DNA of 64,000 bases, taken from the NCBI GenBank assembly GCA_015232455.1, contig JADFZQ010000007.1:62001-126000 (forward strand). The letters run 5' to 3'. Both the position numbers and the translations under genes were made by a program. Source of the stretch: Desulfamplus sp. (GTDB taxonomy: Bacteria > Desulfobacterota > Desulfobacteria > Desulfobacterales > Desulfobacteraceae). This document shows positions 19,668 through 26,841 of the stretch, piece by piece; the first letter of the stretch is position 1; each line of letters begins with the position of its first letter. The notes under the pieces are model-generated. The model did not search any database. It was not told the DNA's origin and saw nothing but the letters and a program-made list of their open reading frames with translations.

Positions 19668-20486
19668 TTAATCAAGAAGACCTCCGCCTCTTCTTCCTCT
19701 TGAAAAGCTCCTTCCTATAAACCACCCTGCTATTAAAACACCAGCTCCCGCACAAAACCATTTGATCATTGCTGTCTTTAGGATATCATCATCAGGTATA
19801 GCCACAATATCTTTCATATCTTGTGTTGATAGAAGAGAAGATTCTTCATTTTCAGAATCTTCATTTTTGGAACTAACTTCATTTTTTTGAAAGCTGCTTT
19901 CATCTTCTTTAAAGCTACTTTGTTCAACTGTTATCTTGCTTTGATCCGATTTTAAACTACGCAACTGAGCTTCAAGAAGTCTATTTTTTTCAAGCTGGGT
20001 GTTTAAAGTAGCTTCAAGGGATTTTATTTTGCTTAAACATTCTGATGCTTTAATATTTTCTGAATTGTTTATTAAAGGAGTAGTCTGGCTTAGCGATTCA
20101 ACACCTTGACCCGCAGTCTGACTTTTTTCAACATTAGGCTCTTTACCCTCAAGTTGTGCAATTCTTTTGTTTAACTGTTCGATAATCAACGCTTTAGGCA
20201 GCTCTTTTGTAATATATTGACTCTCAACCCAACCTAAGTCGCCTTCTTCTGTTTTTACTTTCAAAAATCTCTCTGTAGTCTCAACTATCTCAACTGGCAT
20301 ATTGCTTCTCAATGTTTTGATGGTGTTGTATTGTCTGCCAGGTCCCTCTTTAAGGCTTAAAATAAGCATATCAGAGACATATCCTGTCTCTGCAAATGAG
20401 GAAGTAATTGCTGTCAATGATGTTAATGCGAAGCATATTAAAGTTGACAATATATAAATAACGTAGTGTTTCTGGGTTGTTTTCAT
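19668..20486 (-). CDS. SH3-domain membrane protein (TIGR04211/YgiM type)
   Basis: 272 residues. An N-terminal signal or membrane anchor (about 8-32) is followed by a bacterial SH3 domain (34-95: ETGYVSDMLILSLKEGPG, ...GWVESQYI), the layout of the TIGR04211 family that includes E. coli YgiM. A coiled coil runs from about 100 to 190, then a Ser/Glu-rich linker that looks expanded (repeated SSF/ESSL words). A C-terminal transmembrane helix with a basic end closes it (WFCAGAGVLIAGWFIG then SRGRRGG). The SH3 part should face the periplasm. The exact role is unknown. Confidence 0.85.
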   Translation of the reverse strand: MKTTQKHYVIYILSTLICFALTSLTAITSSFAETGYVSDMLILSLKEGPGRQYNTIKTLRSNMPVEIVETTERFLKVKTEEGDLGWVESQYITKELPKALIIEQLNKRIAQLEGKEPNVEKSQTAGQGVESLSQTTPLINNSENIKASECLSKIKSLEATLNTQLEKNRLLEAQLRSLKSDQSKITVEQSSFKEDESSFQKNEVSSKNEDSENEESSLLSTQDMKDIVAIPDDDILKTAMIKWFCAGAGVLIAGWFIGRSFSRGRRGGGLLD

Positions 20487-20712: not shown

Positions 20713-21423
20713 ATGATGAAACTTTTACACGAACGCGAAGAAATTATAAAATACTCACTTAAAATGGTCAAATCAGCTCTTACAACAGGCTCTGGTGGAA
20801 ACTTGAGTATCTTTAATAGAAGTGAAGGGTTAATTGCTATAACACCAAGTGGAATTGAATACCACGAGCTTACCCCTAACGATATTATTTTACTGGATAT
20901 TGATGGAAATATTATTTCACCTTCTAACTCTACACTTTTAAACTCTAACTTGCAGATTGCAAATTTTAACCTAAAACCCTCAAGCGAAGTGGGGTTTCAC
21001 CTTGCTCTTTATCGTAAAAGATCAGATATAAATGCTGTGGTTCACACTCACTCGCCTTATGCTACAACGTTTGCCTGCCTTAATAGAGAGATTATGCCTG
21101 TTCACTATCTTGTGGCTTTTGCAGGCAAAAAAGTGCCTCTTACCCCCTATGCCACATTTGGGACAAAAGAGCTTGCAGACAACATAGCTTCTACGATTGG
21201 TGATTACAATGCCACCCTTCTTGCCAATCATGGTTTAGTAGCAGTTGGCAAAAATATGCAACATGCCTTTAACATTGCCGAAGAGATTGAGTTTGTAGCA
21301 AGAATCTGTTATCAAACAGAGTGTATAGGGAAACCTATTATCCTTTCTGATGATGAGATGGATAGAGTTATTGAGAAGTTCAAGGATTATGGTTCAAGAG
21401 AGAAGATAGATTTGGTAAAATGA
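20713..21423 (+). CDS. Class II aldolase/adducin family protein (fuculose-phosphate-aldolase-like)
   Basis: 236 residues from the ATG at 20713; an in-frame TTG at 20677 would add 12 residues with no better ribosome site. It has the class II aldolase fold markers: TTGSGGNLSIFN near the start, a TPSGIEY phosphate-binding motif, the catalytic E of the PSSEVGFHLALYR motif, the zinc-binding HTHSPYAT, and LLANHGLVAVG supplying the third His. Such enzymes split L-fuculose-1-phosphate or related sugar phosphates with zinc; the substrate here is open. A poor Ser/Asn stretch (about residues 75-90) looks inserted. It heads a likely three-gene unit with the two genes below. Confidence 0.88.
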   Translation: MMKLLHEREEIIKYSLKMVKSALTTGSGGNLSIFNRSEGLIAITPSGIEYHELTPNDIILLDIDGNIISPSNSTLLNSNLQIANFNLKPSSEVGFHLALYRKRSDINAVVHTHSPYATTFACLNREIMPVHYLVAFAGKKVPLTPYATFGTKELADNIASTIGDYNATLLANHGLVAVGKNMQHAFNIAEEIEFVARICYQTECIGKPIILSDDEMDRVIEKFKDYGSREKIDLVK

Positions 21424-21473
21424 CACTTTATTAAATCTCACAAAGTTAAGATTATTGTAGTTAGGAAAAAAAT

Positions 21474-22913
21474 ATGTTCAAGGATAAATATTGCAACTTA
21501 GCTATTAAAAATATCTACAATGGTCTTGTTGAAGGGCTTTCAAACTTTTCTCAGCCAAGTAGAGTAGCATTGATATATTCTCTTTATCCCTCTGATCAAC
21601 TACGTATTTACGATCCTAATAAGCTCCTTAAAGGTCATGAACTAAGACTTAAAGAGATATATCTTGATGATGATTCGTGGAAAGAGAGTTTAGTTAATAA
21701 TATAAAAAATCAACCTCAAGGACACTTCATTACCCATGGAACTCTTCAGCTTGCTGGCACTATATCTTTTGGAGGCAGTTCAAGCTCATTTTTTTACCAA
21801 ATGTGGTTTACAGACCACCACCCTAATATGTGTTCAATCTCACCTACAGAACGATGGCTTGAACATGCAGGTTGGTTGATGTCTCAGAATTTTTCACAGG
21901 AGAATATGTCTATGGAGAATTCAGGATACGTTCTGCAAAGCTACTCTATTAATGCTATTGAAGATTATATTGTTGATGTTAGAAACAAAATACTTGGCAT
22001 TGATTCAAAGATGTTGATTAGACCAATACTTGATATGATTCTTAGACTCTCTAAAACAAAAGAAGAGGGCTATTGGCCCAGAGGACGTCTTGTTTTTGTT
22101 GATCCAGAGTTTTTGCCAGAACTTCATTTTCTTGCAAAGATTCATAGGCTAGAACGCCCATTTACAAGCAATATCAAGCATGTAAGAAAGTTGATGCTTG
22201 CTGTAGAGTATTCTAATAGAATATTGGTATCTGACGCTAAAAGAATCATTGGGATATCTGATTCTCCTGTCCCAGATTATGCGGTTTCTGCATTTTTCAA
22301 TGGAGATTACGGATTTGTTGAGCTTGCTGGACAACCGATATGCAGCTTTTTTGATGGGGCATTTCACTCTACAACAAGGCGGGCAAAACTTGTTGAGCTT
22401 GAGGAGCTGTTATTAGATTGCAGCAATGATACATTGACCTGCACAGAGCTTTTTCAAGTTGTCTCAAAACTTGTCCACACTGCACAAAACAAACGACATG
22501 GAGCGACTCTTGTATTAAATATCACTGATAATCCAGTAGTATTGTCAGGACACATACTTGAACCACCGCTTGATTTGCGTAGAGAGGAGTATTTTAATCT
22601 TGCCTCTTCTTTAATTAAAATTGACGGAGCATTGCATATTATGCCTAACTGCGATCTTATAGGGTTTGGCTGCCTTTTAGATGGTAAATCTATACCATCT
22701 GAAAATATAGGCAGAGGTGCAAGGTACAATTCAGCTCTAAGATTTACAGCAGAACATGAAGATGTAATTGTAGTTGTTGTATCGTCAGACAGACCTGTTT
22801 CTATTATTTATCGTGGCATAGAGATAACTAACAGATATGACTCTGATCCTATTAAAGAGTATCTATACCAACCAGAAACACTTAAAGAGTATTTGAATAT
22901 AAAGGATTATTAA
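21474..22913 (+). CDS. DisA_N-domain protein, predicted diadenylate cyclase
   Basis: 479 residues. The C-terminal third (about 340-465) looks like a DAC (DisA_N) domain, which makes cyclic di-AMP from two ATP: RHGATLVL, the DGA motif at 384-386 (KIDGALHIM), then GRGARYNSALR at about 414-424 and a VIVVVVSSDRPVSII strand. The canonical RHR triad is R417-Y418-N419, so the usual His is Tyr. The first 300 residues are of unknown fold; HFITHGTLQLAGTISFGGSS and WFTDHHP are distinctive and may form a sensor domain. No transmembrane segment is seen. It lies 50 bp after the aldolase and 1 bp before the His-rich gene. Confidence 0.75.
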   Translation: MFKDKYCNLAIKNIYNGLVEGLSNFSQPSRVALIYSLYPSDQLRIYDPNKLLKGHELRLKEIYLDDDSWKESLVNNIKNQPQGHFITHGTLQLAGTISFGGSSSSFFYQMWFTDHHPNMCSISPTERWLEHAGWLMSQNFSQENMSMENSGYVLQSYSINAIEDYIVDVRNKILGIDSKMLIRPILDMILRLSKTKEEGYWPRGRLVFVDPEFLPELHFLAKIHRLERPFTSNIKHVRKLMLAVEYSNRILVSDAKRIIGISDSPVPDYAVSAFFNGDYGFVELAGQPICSFFDGAFHSTTRRAKLVELEELLLDCSNDTLTCTELFQVVSKLVHTAQNKRHGATLVLNITDNPVVLSGHILEPPLDLRREEYFNLASSLIKIDGALHIMPNCDLIGFGCLLDGKSIPSENIGRGARYNSALRFTAEHEDVIVVVVSSDRPVSIIYRGIEITNRYDSDPIKEYLYQPETLKEYLNIKDY

Positions 22914-22914
22914 A

Positions 22915-23313
22915 ATGACACACCATCAAGAACATCACCATTCACACAGTTCACATAGCCATTCGCATCACCATTCAGATGGTTTAGATAGCCAAAGCCA
23001 CGCTCATGACCACTCACACGGCTCATGTAAACACTCTCATAACAATTCTCATGGCTCAGATAGCCATTCGCACCACCATCACTCAGAAGAAGAGCTATCT
23101 TTGGCTCAAAAGTTTTCCATGCTACTTAAACACTGGATTGACCACAACAATAGCCATAAGGAGAGCTATATTTCATGGGCTAATAAAGTTGATTCTGACA
23201 AGTCAGAATCAACCAATCTTTCAGAGGCTGCTAAACTCCTAAGGCAGACAGCAGAACTATCTGACAAAATAACTGAACATCTTGAAAATGCACTAAAATC
23301 TATAAAAGGTTGA
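22915..23313 (+). CDS. Histidine-rich metal-binding protein
   Basis: 132 residues. The first 58 contain about 27 His with Ser, Gly and Asp (HHSHSSHSHSHHH, HAHDHSHGSC, SHSHHHHSEE), a pattern of nickel, zinc or cobalt storage or delivery proteins and transporter loops. The C-terminal part is a helical module (LAQKFSMLLKHWIDHNNSHKESYISWANKV...HLENALKSI) that recurs with His-rich tails in other bacteria. The start codon follows the preceding stop by one base, so translation is coupled. A link to metal supply of the aldolase is possible but speculative. Confidence 0.75.
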   Translation: MTHHQEHHHSHSSHSHSHHHSDGLDSQSHAHDHSHGSCKHSHNNSHGSDSHSHHHHSEEELSLAQKFSMLLKHWIDHNNSHKESYISWANKVDSDKSESTNLSEAAKLLRQTAELSDKITEHLENALKSIKG

Positions 23314-23321
23314 ACCTGTTT

Positions 23322-23354
23322 AGATTTGACAGCTTTTTAAAAGTTGTCAAATCT
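23322..23354. repeat. 33-bp palindrome, copy 2 of 3
   Basis: Arms AGATTTGACAGCTTTT and AAAAGTTGTCAAATCT around T. One position differs from copies 1 and 3 but still gives a G-U pair in RNA. It sits in the convergent gap between the His-rich gene and the DMT transporter, where it could end both transcripts. Confidence 0.82.
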
Positions 23355-23358
23355 ATTT

Positions 23359-24342
23359 TTAGTTGTTCTCACACTTAATAGTGCTGTTTGATAATTTAGG
23401 AACAATATATGGATAAAGCTGAGACATAAGCATTCCCGTCATCATAACTACGCAGCCCAACAAAGAGCGTCCAGATAAGATTTCACCCAATATTATCCAA
23501 CCACCAATTGCGGCTATTACAGATTCAAGACTTAACAAAATTGAAGCGTGTGCAGGGTGGCTGGTCTTTTGACCATAAATTTGGAGAGAGTAGGCTATTC
23601 CAACAGAAAAAAAGCCGCCGTAAAGAATAGGCAAAGCCGCCATCTTTATCCCTTCAAATGTTATTGTCTCAACTATTAATGCAGCAAGAATGCTTAAAGC
23701 AGAGCATACCATTGATTGAATAAATGAGAGAGTCAAAGTATCCATACGTGTTCCAAGTTTTCCAACAAGATGAACATGTACAGCAAAACAAAATGCTCCA
23801 GCAAGCTCAAGAAGGTCGCCGTAACTAATTGTCATAGATTCAGTTACACTTAGAAGATAAAGCCCAATAGTTGCTAAGATAGCACCAATCCATGTTCCAG
23901 CACTTGTCTTATCTTTCCATAAAAGCCCCATTAGCGGCACAATAACCACATAAAGCCCAGTTATAAAACCAGCTTTACCAGCAGTGGTATAAACAAGACC
24001 TACCTGCTGAAGAGAAGCTCCAGCAAACAGAGCAATACCTGCAAATATTCCGCCTTTTAAGTTTGACTTAATATTATCATAGTTATCAGCTCTATCTTTT
24101 TTTAATGCTCTTTTGCTAAGAGCATTTTTACACAAATCATCTTCTATTTTTTCTGTTTTCTTGCCGCCTCCTTTTTTAGTAATTATGATAAGTGGAAGCA
24201 ATGAAAATGCACCAAGTGCAAAGCGGATTCCGTTAAAAGTATAAGGACCAACATGATCCATTCCCATTCTTTGAGCAACAAATGCAAGCCCCCAGATTGT
24301 TGCAACAAATAGCAAAATAAAGTCAGATTTCAGAGTTCTCAA
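23359..24342 (-). CDS. DMT-superfamily (EamA) transporter
   Basis: Inner-membrane exporter of 327 residues with two EamA repeats of about five helices each: residues 8-150 (FVATIWGLAFVAQ, GPYTFNGIRF, TTAGKAGFITGLYVVIVPLMG) and 165-310 (GDLLELAGAFCFAVHVHLVG, HAS-ILLSLESVIAAIGGWIILGE). EamA transporters move amino acids, nucleobases or drugs; the substrate is not predictable. The cytoplasmic loop between helices 2 and 3 carries a charged Lys/Asp/Asn-rich insert (about 57-93), one of many such inserts here. Confidence 0.9.
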   Translation of the reverse strand: MRTLKSDFILLFVATIWGLAFVAQRMGMDHVGPYTFNGIRFALGAFSLLPLIIITKKGGGKKTEKIEDDLCKNALSKRALKKDRADNYDNIKSNLKGGIFAGIALFAGASLQQVGLVYTTAGKAGFITGLYVVIVPLMGLLWKDKTSAGTWIGAILATIGLYLLSVTESMTISYGDLLELAGAFCFAVHVHLVGKLGTRMDTLTLSFIQSMVCSALSILAALIVETITFEGIKMAALPILYGGFFSVGIAYSLQIYGQKTSHPAHASILLSLESVIAAIGGWIILGEILSGRSLLGCVVMMTGMLMSQLYPYIVPKLSNSTIKCENN

Positions 24343-24710: not shown

Positions 24711-25085
24711 ATGGCAGAAAACGCAATTACAAACAATGTTCTTATTGCCCTATCATGCGGCACAGATAACCCAAACAGAAGCACAAGAGCTTTTCATCTT
24801 GCAACTGTTGCTCAGAAAATGGGTAAAAATGTTAAAATATTTCTGCTTGATGAGGCAGTATATCTTGCAAGACAAGGTGCTATGGAGCATATAAAAGCAG
24901 CTACTGGTGATGTTGCCGATGATTTACTTGCCCATCTTCAAGCTCACGAAGTTCCAATTCTTGTCTGCACACCTTGTGCTAAAGCAAGGTTTATAAAAGA
25001 GGAAGACCTTGCTGAAGGTTTTAGACTTGCACTTGCAAGCGAGCTTATTGAGCTATCTTGTAATTCGGCAGTTATAAGCCTTTAA
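24711..25085 (+). CDS. DsrE-family sulfur-relay protein
   Basis: 124 residues with the DsrE/DsrF-like alpha-beta fold: NNVLIALSCGTDNPNRSTRAFHLATVAQKMGKNVKIFLLDEAVYLAR, then VPILVCTPCAKARF with the conserved cysteine region. Family members carry persulfide sulfur or act as small sulfur-relay partners. It lies 13 bp before a CoA-disulfide-reductase-rhodanese gene, so the two should act together on per- or polysulfide sulfur. The start follows AAAAGGAG. Confidence 0.88.
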   Translation: MAENAITNNVLIALSCGTDNPNRSTRAFHLATVAQKMGKNVKIFLLDEAVYLARQGAMEHIKAATGDVADDLLAHLQAHEVPILVCTPCAKARFIKEEDLAEGFRLALASELIELSCNSAVISL

Positions 25086-25098
25086 AGTGAGGTGAGGT

Positions 25099-26841
25099 AT
25101 GCCAGAAAAAGTATTGATTATAGGTGCTGTAGCACTTGGTCCAAAGGTTGCTTGTAGGTTAAGGCGTATTAATCCTGATATTGATATAACCATGATTGAC
25201 AGAGATTCGTTAATCTCTTATGGCGGGTGCGGAATCCCTTATTATGTTGGTGGCGATGTTCAAGAGTTAGAGGGGCTTTACTCCACAATTGCCCATGTTA
25301 AGCGAGATGTCTCATTTTTTAAAAACGTTAAAGGTTTTAATGTTCTTACAAGAGTGGAAGCTGTTGAAATAAAGAGAAGAGAAAAAAAAGTTGTTGTTCG
25401 TTATTTAGATGAGGATAGGGTAGGGGAGCTTGATTATGACAAGTTAGTTATTGGAACAGGAGCAACTCCCATGCGTCCTCCTTTTCAAGGCTCTGATTTG
25501 CCAAAGGTGCATGTTGTCTCAAATCTTCACCATGCAAGTGCAATCAAAACTGCTATTTCAAATGGCGAAGTTGAACGGGCTGTGGTAATTGGTGCTGGTG
25601 CTATTGGAATTGAGATGGCAGAAGCATTAACAGACCTTTGGGGGGTTGAAACCACAATTGTTGAGATGGCAGATCAGGTTCTTCCGCAGGCACTTGGCAG
25701 AGATATGGCAAGAATTGTGGAGAAAAAACTTGAAGATAAAGATGTTAAACTTCTCTTGTCTCAAAAAGTTATTAAAATAAATGGAGATATAGAAAACGGT
25801 GCAGAGTCTGTTGAGGTTATTAATCAATTAGATTCTACACCAACTACTTTACCATGCGATATGGTTATTGTTGCTGCTGGTGTCCGTCCAAATTCTGAAC
25901 TTGCAGTAGGTGCTGGTCTTGCAATTGGCAGAAACAGAGGAATTTTAGTAAATAAATGTATGCAGACCACAGACCCAAATATTTACGCTGGCGGAGATTG
26001 TGCAGAGTTTACAAATCTTGTAAGTGGTTTAGATTGTGTTATGCCTTTGGGTTCTCTTGCAAATCGTCAGGGACGCATCATTGCAACTAACATAAATGGT
26101 GGTAATGAAAAGTTTACGGGAAGTGTCGGCTCATTTTGCATTAAAGTCTTTGATATTGGAGTTGCAAAAGCAGGATTGACTTTTAATCAGGCTCAAGCTG
26201 CTGGTTTTGATCCTGTCTATGCGGTTGTTGCTCAATCAGACAGAGCACATTTTATTCCTGATGCTGATTTTATGTTTATGAAGCTCATTGCAGATAGAAA
26301 AACAAGAACTGTGCTTGGTGTAGAGGCAGCAGGTCCTCAAGGCGATGCTGTAAAGGCAAGGGTTGATGCAGTTGCACCTCTTTTGAAGTTTGGAGTTGAT
26401 GTGAGCGAAATCTGTAATTTAGAGGTTAGCTACTCTCCGCCCTACGCCTCTGCTATGGATATTGTAAATAATGCTGGAAATGCTTTGGACAACACATTGA
26501 ATGGTAATCTTAAAGCCATTGATACCTTTGAATTTGTTGGGCTGTTAGAACAAGGTAATGTAAAGGTGCTTGATGTTAGAAGCCATATTCAGTCAGCACC
26601 GTTTGTTGAAAAATATCCTAAACAGTGGATAAATATTCCTCAAGATGAGCTAAGAGAGAGGTATGCTGAGCTTACTGCGGTGTTAAATGAGCTAAAAGAA
26701 TCCCCACTATATCTTATCTGTGGAACAGGTCCTCGCTCTTACGAAGCTCAAGTTTTTCTTAACAGCAAAGGAATAGCAAACACAAGAAATGTTCAAGGTG
26801 GTTATGGAATGATACTTGCCATTCATCAACCTTTAGTTTAG
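25099..26841 (+). CDS. CoA-disulfide/polysulfide reductase with C-terminal rhodanese domain
   Basis: 580 residues. Residues 1-440 are an FAD/NAD(P)-dependent pyridine nucleotide-disulfide oxidoreductase of the CoADR/NADH-oxidase type: FAD site VLIIGAVALGPKVACRL (the usual GxGxxG is altered to G-A-V-A-L-G), the single redox Cys in SYGGCGIPYYVGG (about 44), NAD site VVIGAGAIGIEMAEAL, and NIYAGGDCAE. Residues about 470-580 are a rhodanese domain with active-site loop CGTGPRSYEA. This matches CoADR-RHD or Npsr enzymes, which reduce CoA disulfide, CoA-persulfide or polysulfide with NAD(P)H. The DsrE-like gene upstream strengthens a sulfur role. Start after GTGAGGTGAGGT. Confidence 0.92.
   Translation: MPEKVLIIGAVALGPKVACRLRRINPDIDITMIDRDSLISYGGCGIPYYVGGDVQELEGLYSTIAHVKRDVSFFKNVKGFNVLTRVEAVEIKRREKKVVVRYLDEDRVGELDYDKLVIGTGATPMRPPFQGSDLPKVHVVSNLHHASAIKTAISNGEVERAVVIGAGAIGIEMAEALTDLWGVETTIVEMADQVLPQALGRDMARIVEKKLEDKDVKLLLSQKVIKINGDIENGAESVEVINQLDSTPTTLPCDMVIVAAGVRPNSELAVGAGLAIGRNRGILVNKCMQTTDPNIYAGGDCAEFTNLVSGLDCVMPLGSLANRQGRIIATNINGGNEKFTGSVGSFCIKVFDIGVAKAGLTFNQAQAAGFDPVYAVVAQSDRAHFIPDADFMFMKLIADRKTRTVLGVEAAGPQGDAVKARVDAVAPLLKFGVDVSEICNLEVSYSPPYASAMDIVNNAGNALDNTLNGNLKAIDTFEFVGLLEQGNVKVLDVRSHIQSAPFVEKYPKQWINIPQDELRERYAELTAVLNELKESPLYLICGTGPRSYEAQVFLNSKGIANTRNVQGGYGMILAIHQPLV

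Follow-up and report, generated by a model that had tools for sequence, protein, structure and literature searches.

A DACND-DACNH-DAC protein with a conserved R-Y-N motif in place of RHR, paired with a His-rich protein in one clade of Desulfobacteraceae

The window, by which we mean the whole 64,000-nucleotide stretch of DNA analysed here, comes from a 4.35 Mb draft genome that is 98.5% complete, and its closest named relatives, among the best 80 of 368 relatives in GTDB r220, are Desulfamplus MAGs with 94–96% protein identity, which makes a species of Desulfamplus (Desulfobacteraceae) the most likely host. At the locus, three genes on one strand encode a class II (zinc-type) aldolase, a DAC protein and a small His-rich protein, with 50 bp between the first two genes and 1 bp between the last two (Table 1). 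The initial annotation had described this gene set, including its 1-bp gap, and we find it as described. For comparison, 112 distinct DAC ORFs were collected. They come from three sets, namely 58 relatives, 296 phylum genomes and the 80 top-ranking among 368 relatives encoding DACND-type proteins in a scan of GTDB r220. Two flanking genes, encoding an SH3_and_anchor protein and an EamA transporter, served as synteny markers, and their homologue clusters occur in 37/112 and 18/112 loci, respectively. An Rfam scan of the window returned no riboswitch or other RNA at gathering scores. Further downstream (24711–26841), a DsrE-like gene (Pfam match) precedes one of the flavin disulfide-reductase type whose end resembles rhodanese (assigned by eye), the two forming a sulfur-handling pair.

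Table 1. Genes, domains and motifs at the locus (window positions; residue numbers refer to the DAC protein).
Feature	Position	Strand	Evidence
SH3_and_anchor gene, divergent, upstream	19668..20486	-	TIGR04211, 92.4 bits, cut-off 65
Class II (zinc-type) aldolase gene, L-fuculose-phosphate aldolase family	20713..21423	+	PF00596, NF005302
DACND-DACNH-DAC protein gene, 479 aa	21474..22913	+	Pfam matches, model, dN/dS
DACND domain, residues 6–176	21489..22001	+	PF21749, E 2.4e-66, 222.9 bits, cut-off 27
DACNH domain, residues 184–284	22023..22325	+	PF21750, E 6.3e-25, 87.6 bits, cut-off 27
DAC domain, residues 334–448	22473..22817	+	PF02457, E 6.7e-12, 45.5 bits, cut-off 27
DGA motif, residues 384–386	22623..22631	+	Asp in 111/111 rows, Ala in 110/111
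RGARYNSA block, residues 414–421, replacing xGTRHRAA	22713..22736	+	Register by alignment
S-x-D, residues 437–439, replacing canonical SEE	22782..22790	+	Ser437 and Asp439 in 111/111 rows
His-rich small protein gene, 132 aa	22915..23313	+	ORF; adjoins DAC gene in 40/44 clade rows
Conserved C-terminal domain of the His-rich protein, HWIDHN-SH motif	23101..23310	+	Alignment A3
Terminator-like hairpin, 16 pairs and T run, just 3' of the His-rich gene	23321..23355	+	Pattern match only
EamA transporter gene, convergent, downstream	23359..24342	-	PF00892

In the DAC protein, DACND, DACNH and DAC all score above their Pfam cut-offs and follow one another in the order that defines DACND-DACNH-DAC proteins; judged by this domain content, it is a sensor-type DAC of a known architecture. 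The class is thus already known, if little studied. Its sensor-domain names, DACND among them, are said to stem from work such as that of Burroughs in 2015 and Galperin in 2023. Our literature search under the names DACND, DACNH, DACNV, DACNG and DACNK found no relevant paper, and an earlier description may exist. What had been called a 300-residue N-terminal domain of unknown fold therefore consists of DACND and DACNH, both of them already named in Pfam, although a search by sequence found no solved relative for the region. The protein is predicted to be soluble. With Pfam, no transmembrane domain model was found in it, and there is no match to CdaA_N either.

An AlphaFold2 model of the protein (77 sequences; the structure alignments A4 and A5 comprise 77 and 71 rows) has a mean pLDDT of 86.9, falling below 50 in the loop that carries Arg414. 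With VIA-align, its DAC domain aligns with the solved structures of CdaA, DacM and DisA, the top match being a DacM (7dfx_B; Z 14.5, rmsd 3.1, 131 residues). The protein therefore shares the DAC fold, as well as the DGA motif, with CdaA/DacA and DisA, but differs from them in having R-Y-N for RHR and SSD for SEE and in lacking a CdaA_N match. Modelled by itself, the DACND domain reaches a pLDDT of 84.9; against solved structures, its top Foldseek E-value is 0.011 and its top VIA-align Z is 7.6, and no family stands out. Roadblock, longin and GAF domains are found among the many tied rows, which makes them only a lead. The dN/dS of the DAC gene, 0.05–0.12 against four relatives, is low, indicating that the gene is under purifying selection and not there by chance.

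We followed the active-site motifs through an alignment of 111 DACND proteins from many families, including that of the window and drawn partly from the 80 top-ranking GTDB relatives. Canonical DACs from the same genome and from relatives carry xGTRHRAA or close variants (with RHR, RHV or RHQ), whereas the aligned segment of the DACND proteins reads RGARYNSA or RGARFNSA, with no shift in register. In the window protein, GARYNSA is found at the place of the canonical GxRHRxA (GTRHRAA in canonical DACs), and VSSD at the place of (V/I)SEE, with the acidic residue retained as Asp in 111/111 rows; the initial annotation had noted the DGA motif and the R-Y-N. Invariant throughout the 111 proteins are Asp384, Arg414, Ala416, Arg417, Asn419, Ser420, Arg423, Ser437 and Asp439, while residue 418 is Tyr in 68 and Phe in 43. 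We rejected decay as the origin of R-Y-N because of this invariance and the low dN/dS; the motif is, to judge from its conservation, a class signature rather than the mark of a dead enzyme.

According to a published account (PMC7288161, section 7), ATP is contacted in Listeria CdaA by Asp71 at the ribose and by Thr102, Arg103, His104 and Ser122 at the phosphate, with Glu124 binding Mg. In our alignment, Asp71, Arg103 and Ser122 have identical counterparts in the window protein and the metal ligand Glu124 has an Asp counterpart, while Thr102 and His104, two phosphate-contact side chains, and the Leu of GALI are changed. The site is thus rewired from Thr-His-Arg to Ala-Tyr/Phe-Asn, with an extra invariant Arg before the Gly, around the retained Asp, first Arg, Ser and acid. 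The retained residues would include those that a metal-dependent cyclase needs, and the changed ones would be expected to affect phosphate and base recognition.

The same block is also found outside this family. A search of plasmid proteins with the window protein returned one DACNH-DAC protein, from Priestia, and a second search with the latter returned 7 records, including its own. RG[AS]R[YF]NS[AG] is present in 6/7 of these DACNH-type DACs, which come from Bacillota, Bacteroidota and Pseudomonadota, and the seventh, from Phycisphaera, has RGARLNA; all 7 carry DACNH, 4/7 carry DACNG and none (0/7) carries DACND. Two of them, on plasmids of Citrobacter (L289) and Gluconobacter (L292), reach 803.8 and 712.2 bits with the DS-2 DAC model NF053872 (cut-off 630), and the genes adjoining the former exceed the cut-offs of the DS-2 phospholipase and nucleotidyltransferase models. 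The DS-2 DAC (DACNG-DACNH-DAC) therefore resembles the window protein in DACNH, DAC and the RG[AS]R[YF]NS[AG] block, but it has DACNG in place of DACND, DGT instead of DGA in both L289 and L292, and a neighbouring phospholipase and CD-NTase, which are absent at the window locus. For the DS-2 DAC, defence is reported to be lost when two residues predicted to be catalytic are mutated (PMC13092281). Though indirect, this is the strongest evidence at present that sites of this kind work. Together with the conservation of the motif, it makes a working, rewired site in the window protein appear more likely than a dead one, and it weakens the earlier suggestion that the cyclase may be inactive, as do the invariance of the motif's Arg and Asn (111/111) and its presence in DACNH-type DACs of other phyla. 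On a Priestia megaterium plasmid (L288, 429–1217 and 1898–3418), an annotated nucleotidyltransferase lies near a DACNH-type DAC and is divergent from it, possibly a further CBASS-DAC arrangement.

To follow the gene neighbourhood, a tree was built of the DAC ORFs of at least 400 aa (111 rows including the window; quick IQ-TREE mode, SH-aLRT support, midpoint root), leaving out the truncated L046 and L071; L130 has no DAC ORF. One clade of 44 (SH-aLRT 100) contains every row with a linked His-rich gene, 40/44 inside it against 0/67 outside within the sequence covered, where L155 has just 23 bp downstream. The two genes lie on the same strand, and a 4-bp overlap between them is common among the loci. 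Three of the four exceptions within the clade are sister rows of the Desulfobacter type, and the fourth is a Desulfamplus with its His-rich gene elsewhere in the genome; outside the tree rows, the truncated DAC ORF of L046 is also followed by a His-rich gene. DAC and His-rich gene are therefore a conserved, clade-wide fixed pair in Desulfobacteraceae, and it is in the window protein's clade alone, among DACND-DACNH-DAC proteins, that this pairing is found. The initial annotation had treated a lack of co-occurrence in relatives as evidence against a link among the three genes; for this pair, relatives show the opposite. The 67 outside rows have no common DAC neighbour, the largest cluster confined to them comprising 5 loci. 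In two Desulfobacter-type loci without the His-rich gene (L037, L038), a NagZ-like gene of glycoside hydrolase family 3 lies directly 3' of the DAC gene on the same strand, and one 24 kb contig (G038, C17) has two identical DACND genes near its ends in opposite orientation (L064, L065), a duplication that is possibly an assembly artefact.

Among the first 57 residues of the window's His-rich protein, a count by eye gives about 23 His, a composition that predicts binding of Ni, Co or Zn. Its conserved C-terminal domain spans the last 65 to 70 residues, and neither for the domain nor for the whole protein did a Pfam or NCBIfam model score above cut-off. This domain occurs in 42/58 relatives and 99/296 phylum genomes, compared with 39/58 and 21/296 for DACND; as it is the commoner of the two in the phylum, it represents a more widespread family, whose linkage to the DAC gene arose a single time. 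Across 40 other stretches with the domain, many copies carry His-rich tails and we found no common neighbour. Loci L197–L215 and L216–L255 outline an apparently unnamed family of small proteins with an HW(I/V)xHN--H domain, present in a third of the sampled phylum genomes and often bearing His-rich tails at either terminus; in a few loci (L218, L240; L225, L227, L235), neighbours resemble cobalamin-pathway genes by eye.

Two DAC genes were found in the genome, one for the DACND protein and one for a CdaA-type protein with GTRHRAA, while in G044, a relative with a complete, single-contig genome, the sole DAC match is a DACND protein. A search for c-di-AMP phosphodiesterases, which the initial annotation had proposed, yielded one 7TM-HD (PgpH-type) protein and six DHH matches in the genome of the window. 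As a test of c-di-AMP synthesis by DACND proteins, PgpH proved uninformative: PF07698 is found in 24/26 chosen genomes, including all 7 in which no DAC was detected (G012, G013, G022, G039, G040, G051 and G054), and PgpH-type proteins, being present also in such DAC-free relatives, say nothing on the product of the DACND protein.

At a probability of roughly 0.5, we favour a reading in which the window protein is a soluble sensor-type DAC with a rewired, conserved and working site, paired with the His-rich protein. DACND and DACNH would act as signal receivers that switch a nucleotide cyclase dependent on metal, which would use ATP and make c-di-AMP or a close relative of it; the DAC and His-rich genes, whose order we observe directly, are probably co-transcribed as an operon in the Desulfobacteraceae clade, and, more speculatively, the His-rich protein may determine the metal state of the cyclase or of its pathway. 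Against this reading stand the changed counterparts of Thr102, His104 and the GALI Leu, the low-confidence modelling of the Arg414 loop, and the DGT of the DS-2-type L289 and L292. The main competitor, which we regard as possible but doubtful, is a pseudo-cyclase whose DAC domain would bind, without catalysis, either a nucleotide or the c-di-AMP that CdaA makes, the protein signalling as a receptor through DACND and DACNH. Of RHR, the His and the second Arg are gone, which speaks for it, as does the canonical CdaA encoded in the same genome, and a study on M. tuberculosis DacA reports that changing RHR to AAA ended ATP binding and activity (PMC3328451). On the other hand, the acidic metal-site residue and the Asp of DGA are invariant, and a mere binder would need them less; in DS-2, a site of this type reportedly depends on residues predicted to be catalytic (PMC13092281); and in G044 the sole DAC match is a DACND protein.

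Besides the site, the neighbourhood admits other readings. The aldolase exceeds the cut-offs of both PF00596 (E 2.7e-54) and NF005302 (282.8 bits, cut-off 264), which agrees with its earlier description as zinc-type and places it in the L-fuculose-phosphate aldolase family; direct reading finds the segments SSEVGFH, VVHTHSP and LANHGL, which we take, after E. coli FucA, to hold the three His that bind zinc together with the catalytic Glu. A homologue of MtnA is encoded in the genome (406.1 bits, cut-off 279), which makes it conceivable that the aldolase is one that acts in deoxy-sugar salvage. Were the three genes a true unit, the aldolase would supply or remove the sensed metabolite and the His-rich protein would supply the aldolase with zinc. 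Their common strand and close spacing fit this, and all three stand together in 16/44 clade rows, deep branches included. However, of the three-gene link that the initial annotation had drawn, only the DAC/His-rich half holds up across the clade: the aldolase adjoins the DAC gene in just 17/44 rows and is not beside it in 27/44, although in four of these the contig ends less than 500 bp upstream. Moreover, the aldolase (P0002) found no match in several genomes of the Desulfotignum and Desulfobacula types in which the pair is present, and close homologues are unlinked in others (such as G023, G028, G033, G043 and G044). We thus consider a three-gene unit very unlikely; most likely, the aldolase is a nearby metabolic gene that the system does not require. 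A role in phage defence, as a chromosomal relative of the DS-2 DAC acting in or with a CBASS-like pathway, would account for the DACNH domain and RG[AS]R[YF]NS block held in common with DS-2 DACs, but hardly seems probable at all: the window protein reaches 54.5 bits with NF053872, far from the cut-off of 630, PADLOC defence models gave no match, BLAST with the L289 proteins found nothing related to the DS-2 phospholipase or CD-NTase, either at the DACND loci or within the window, and the gene shows a steady, vertical-looking inheritance with fixed housekeeping neighbours. Phage records contained no relative of the query proteins P0001 and P0004.

A bolder extension of the preferred reading, that of a working sensor-type DAC, is that the DACNH-linked RG[AS]R[YF]NS DACs constitute a separate catalytic class in which rewired contacts to phosphate and base lead to a product or substrate different from canonical c-di-AMP, and which in Desulfobacteraceae would be metal-gated by the His-rich protein after the two were tied together once; we consider this unlikely. 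If true, a nucleotide signal would here encode the status of a trace metal. The named classes of DAC enzymes rest on RHR, and here a conserved class dispenses with it, from sulfate reducers to phage defence, which turns the product of RHR-less DACs into a directly testable question. The His-rich family offers a concrete genetic partner in cultivated species such as Desulfocicer vacuolatum DSM 3385 (L108) and Desulfospira joergensenii DSM 10085 (L122).

The canonical CdaA of the genome (L048, 6764–8215; G000, contig C9) has YbbR (CdaR-type) domains within the same protein; in Bacillus, CdaA and its CdaR-type partner are encoded by separate genes.
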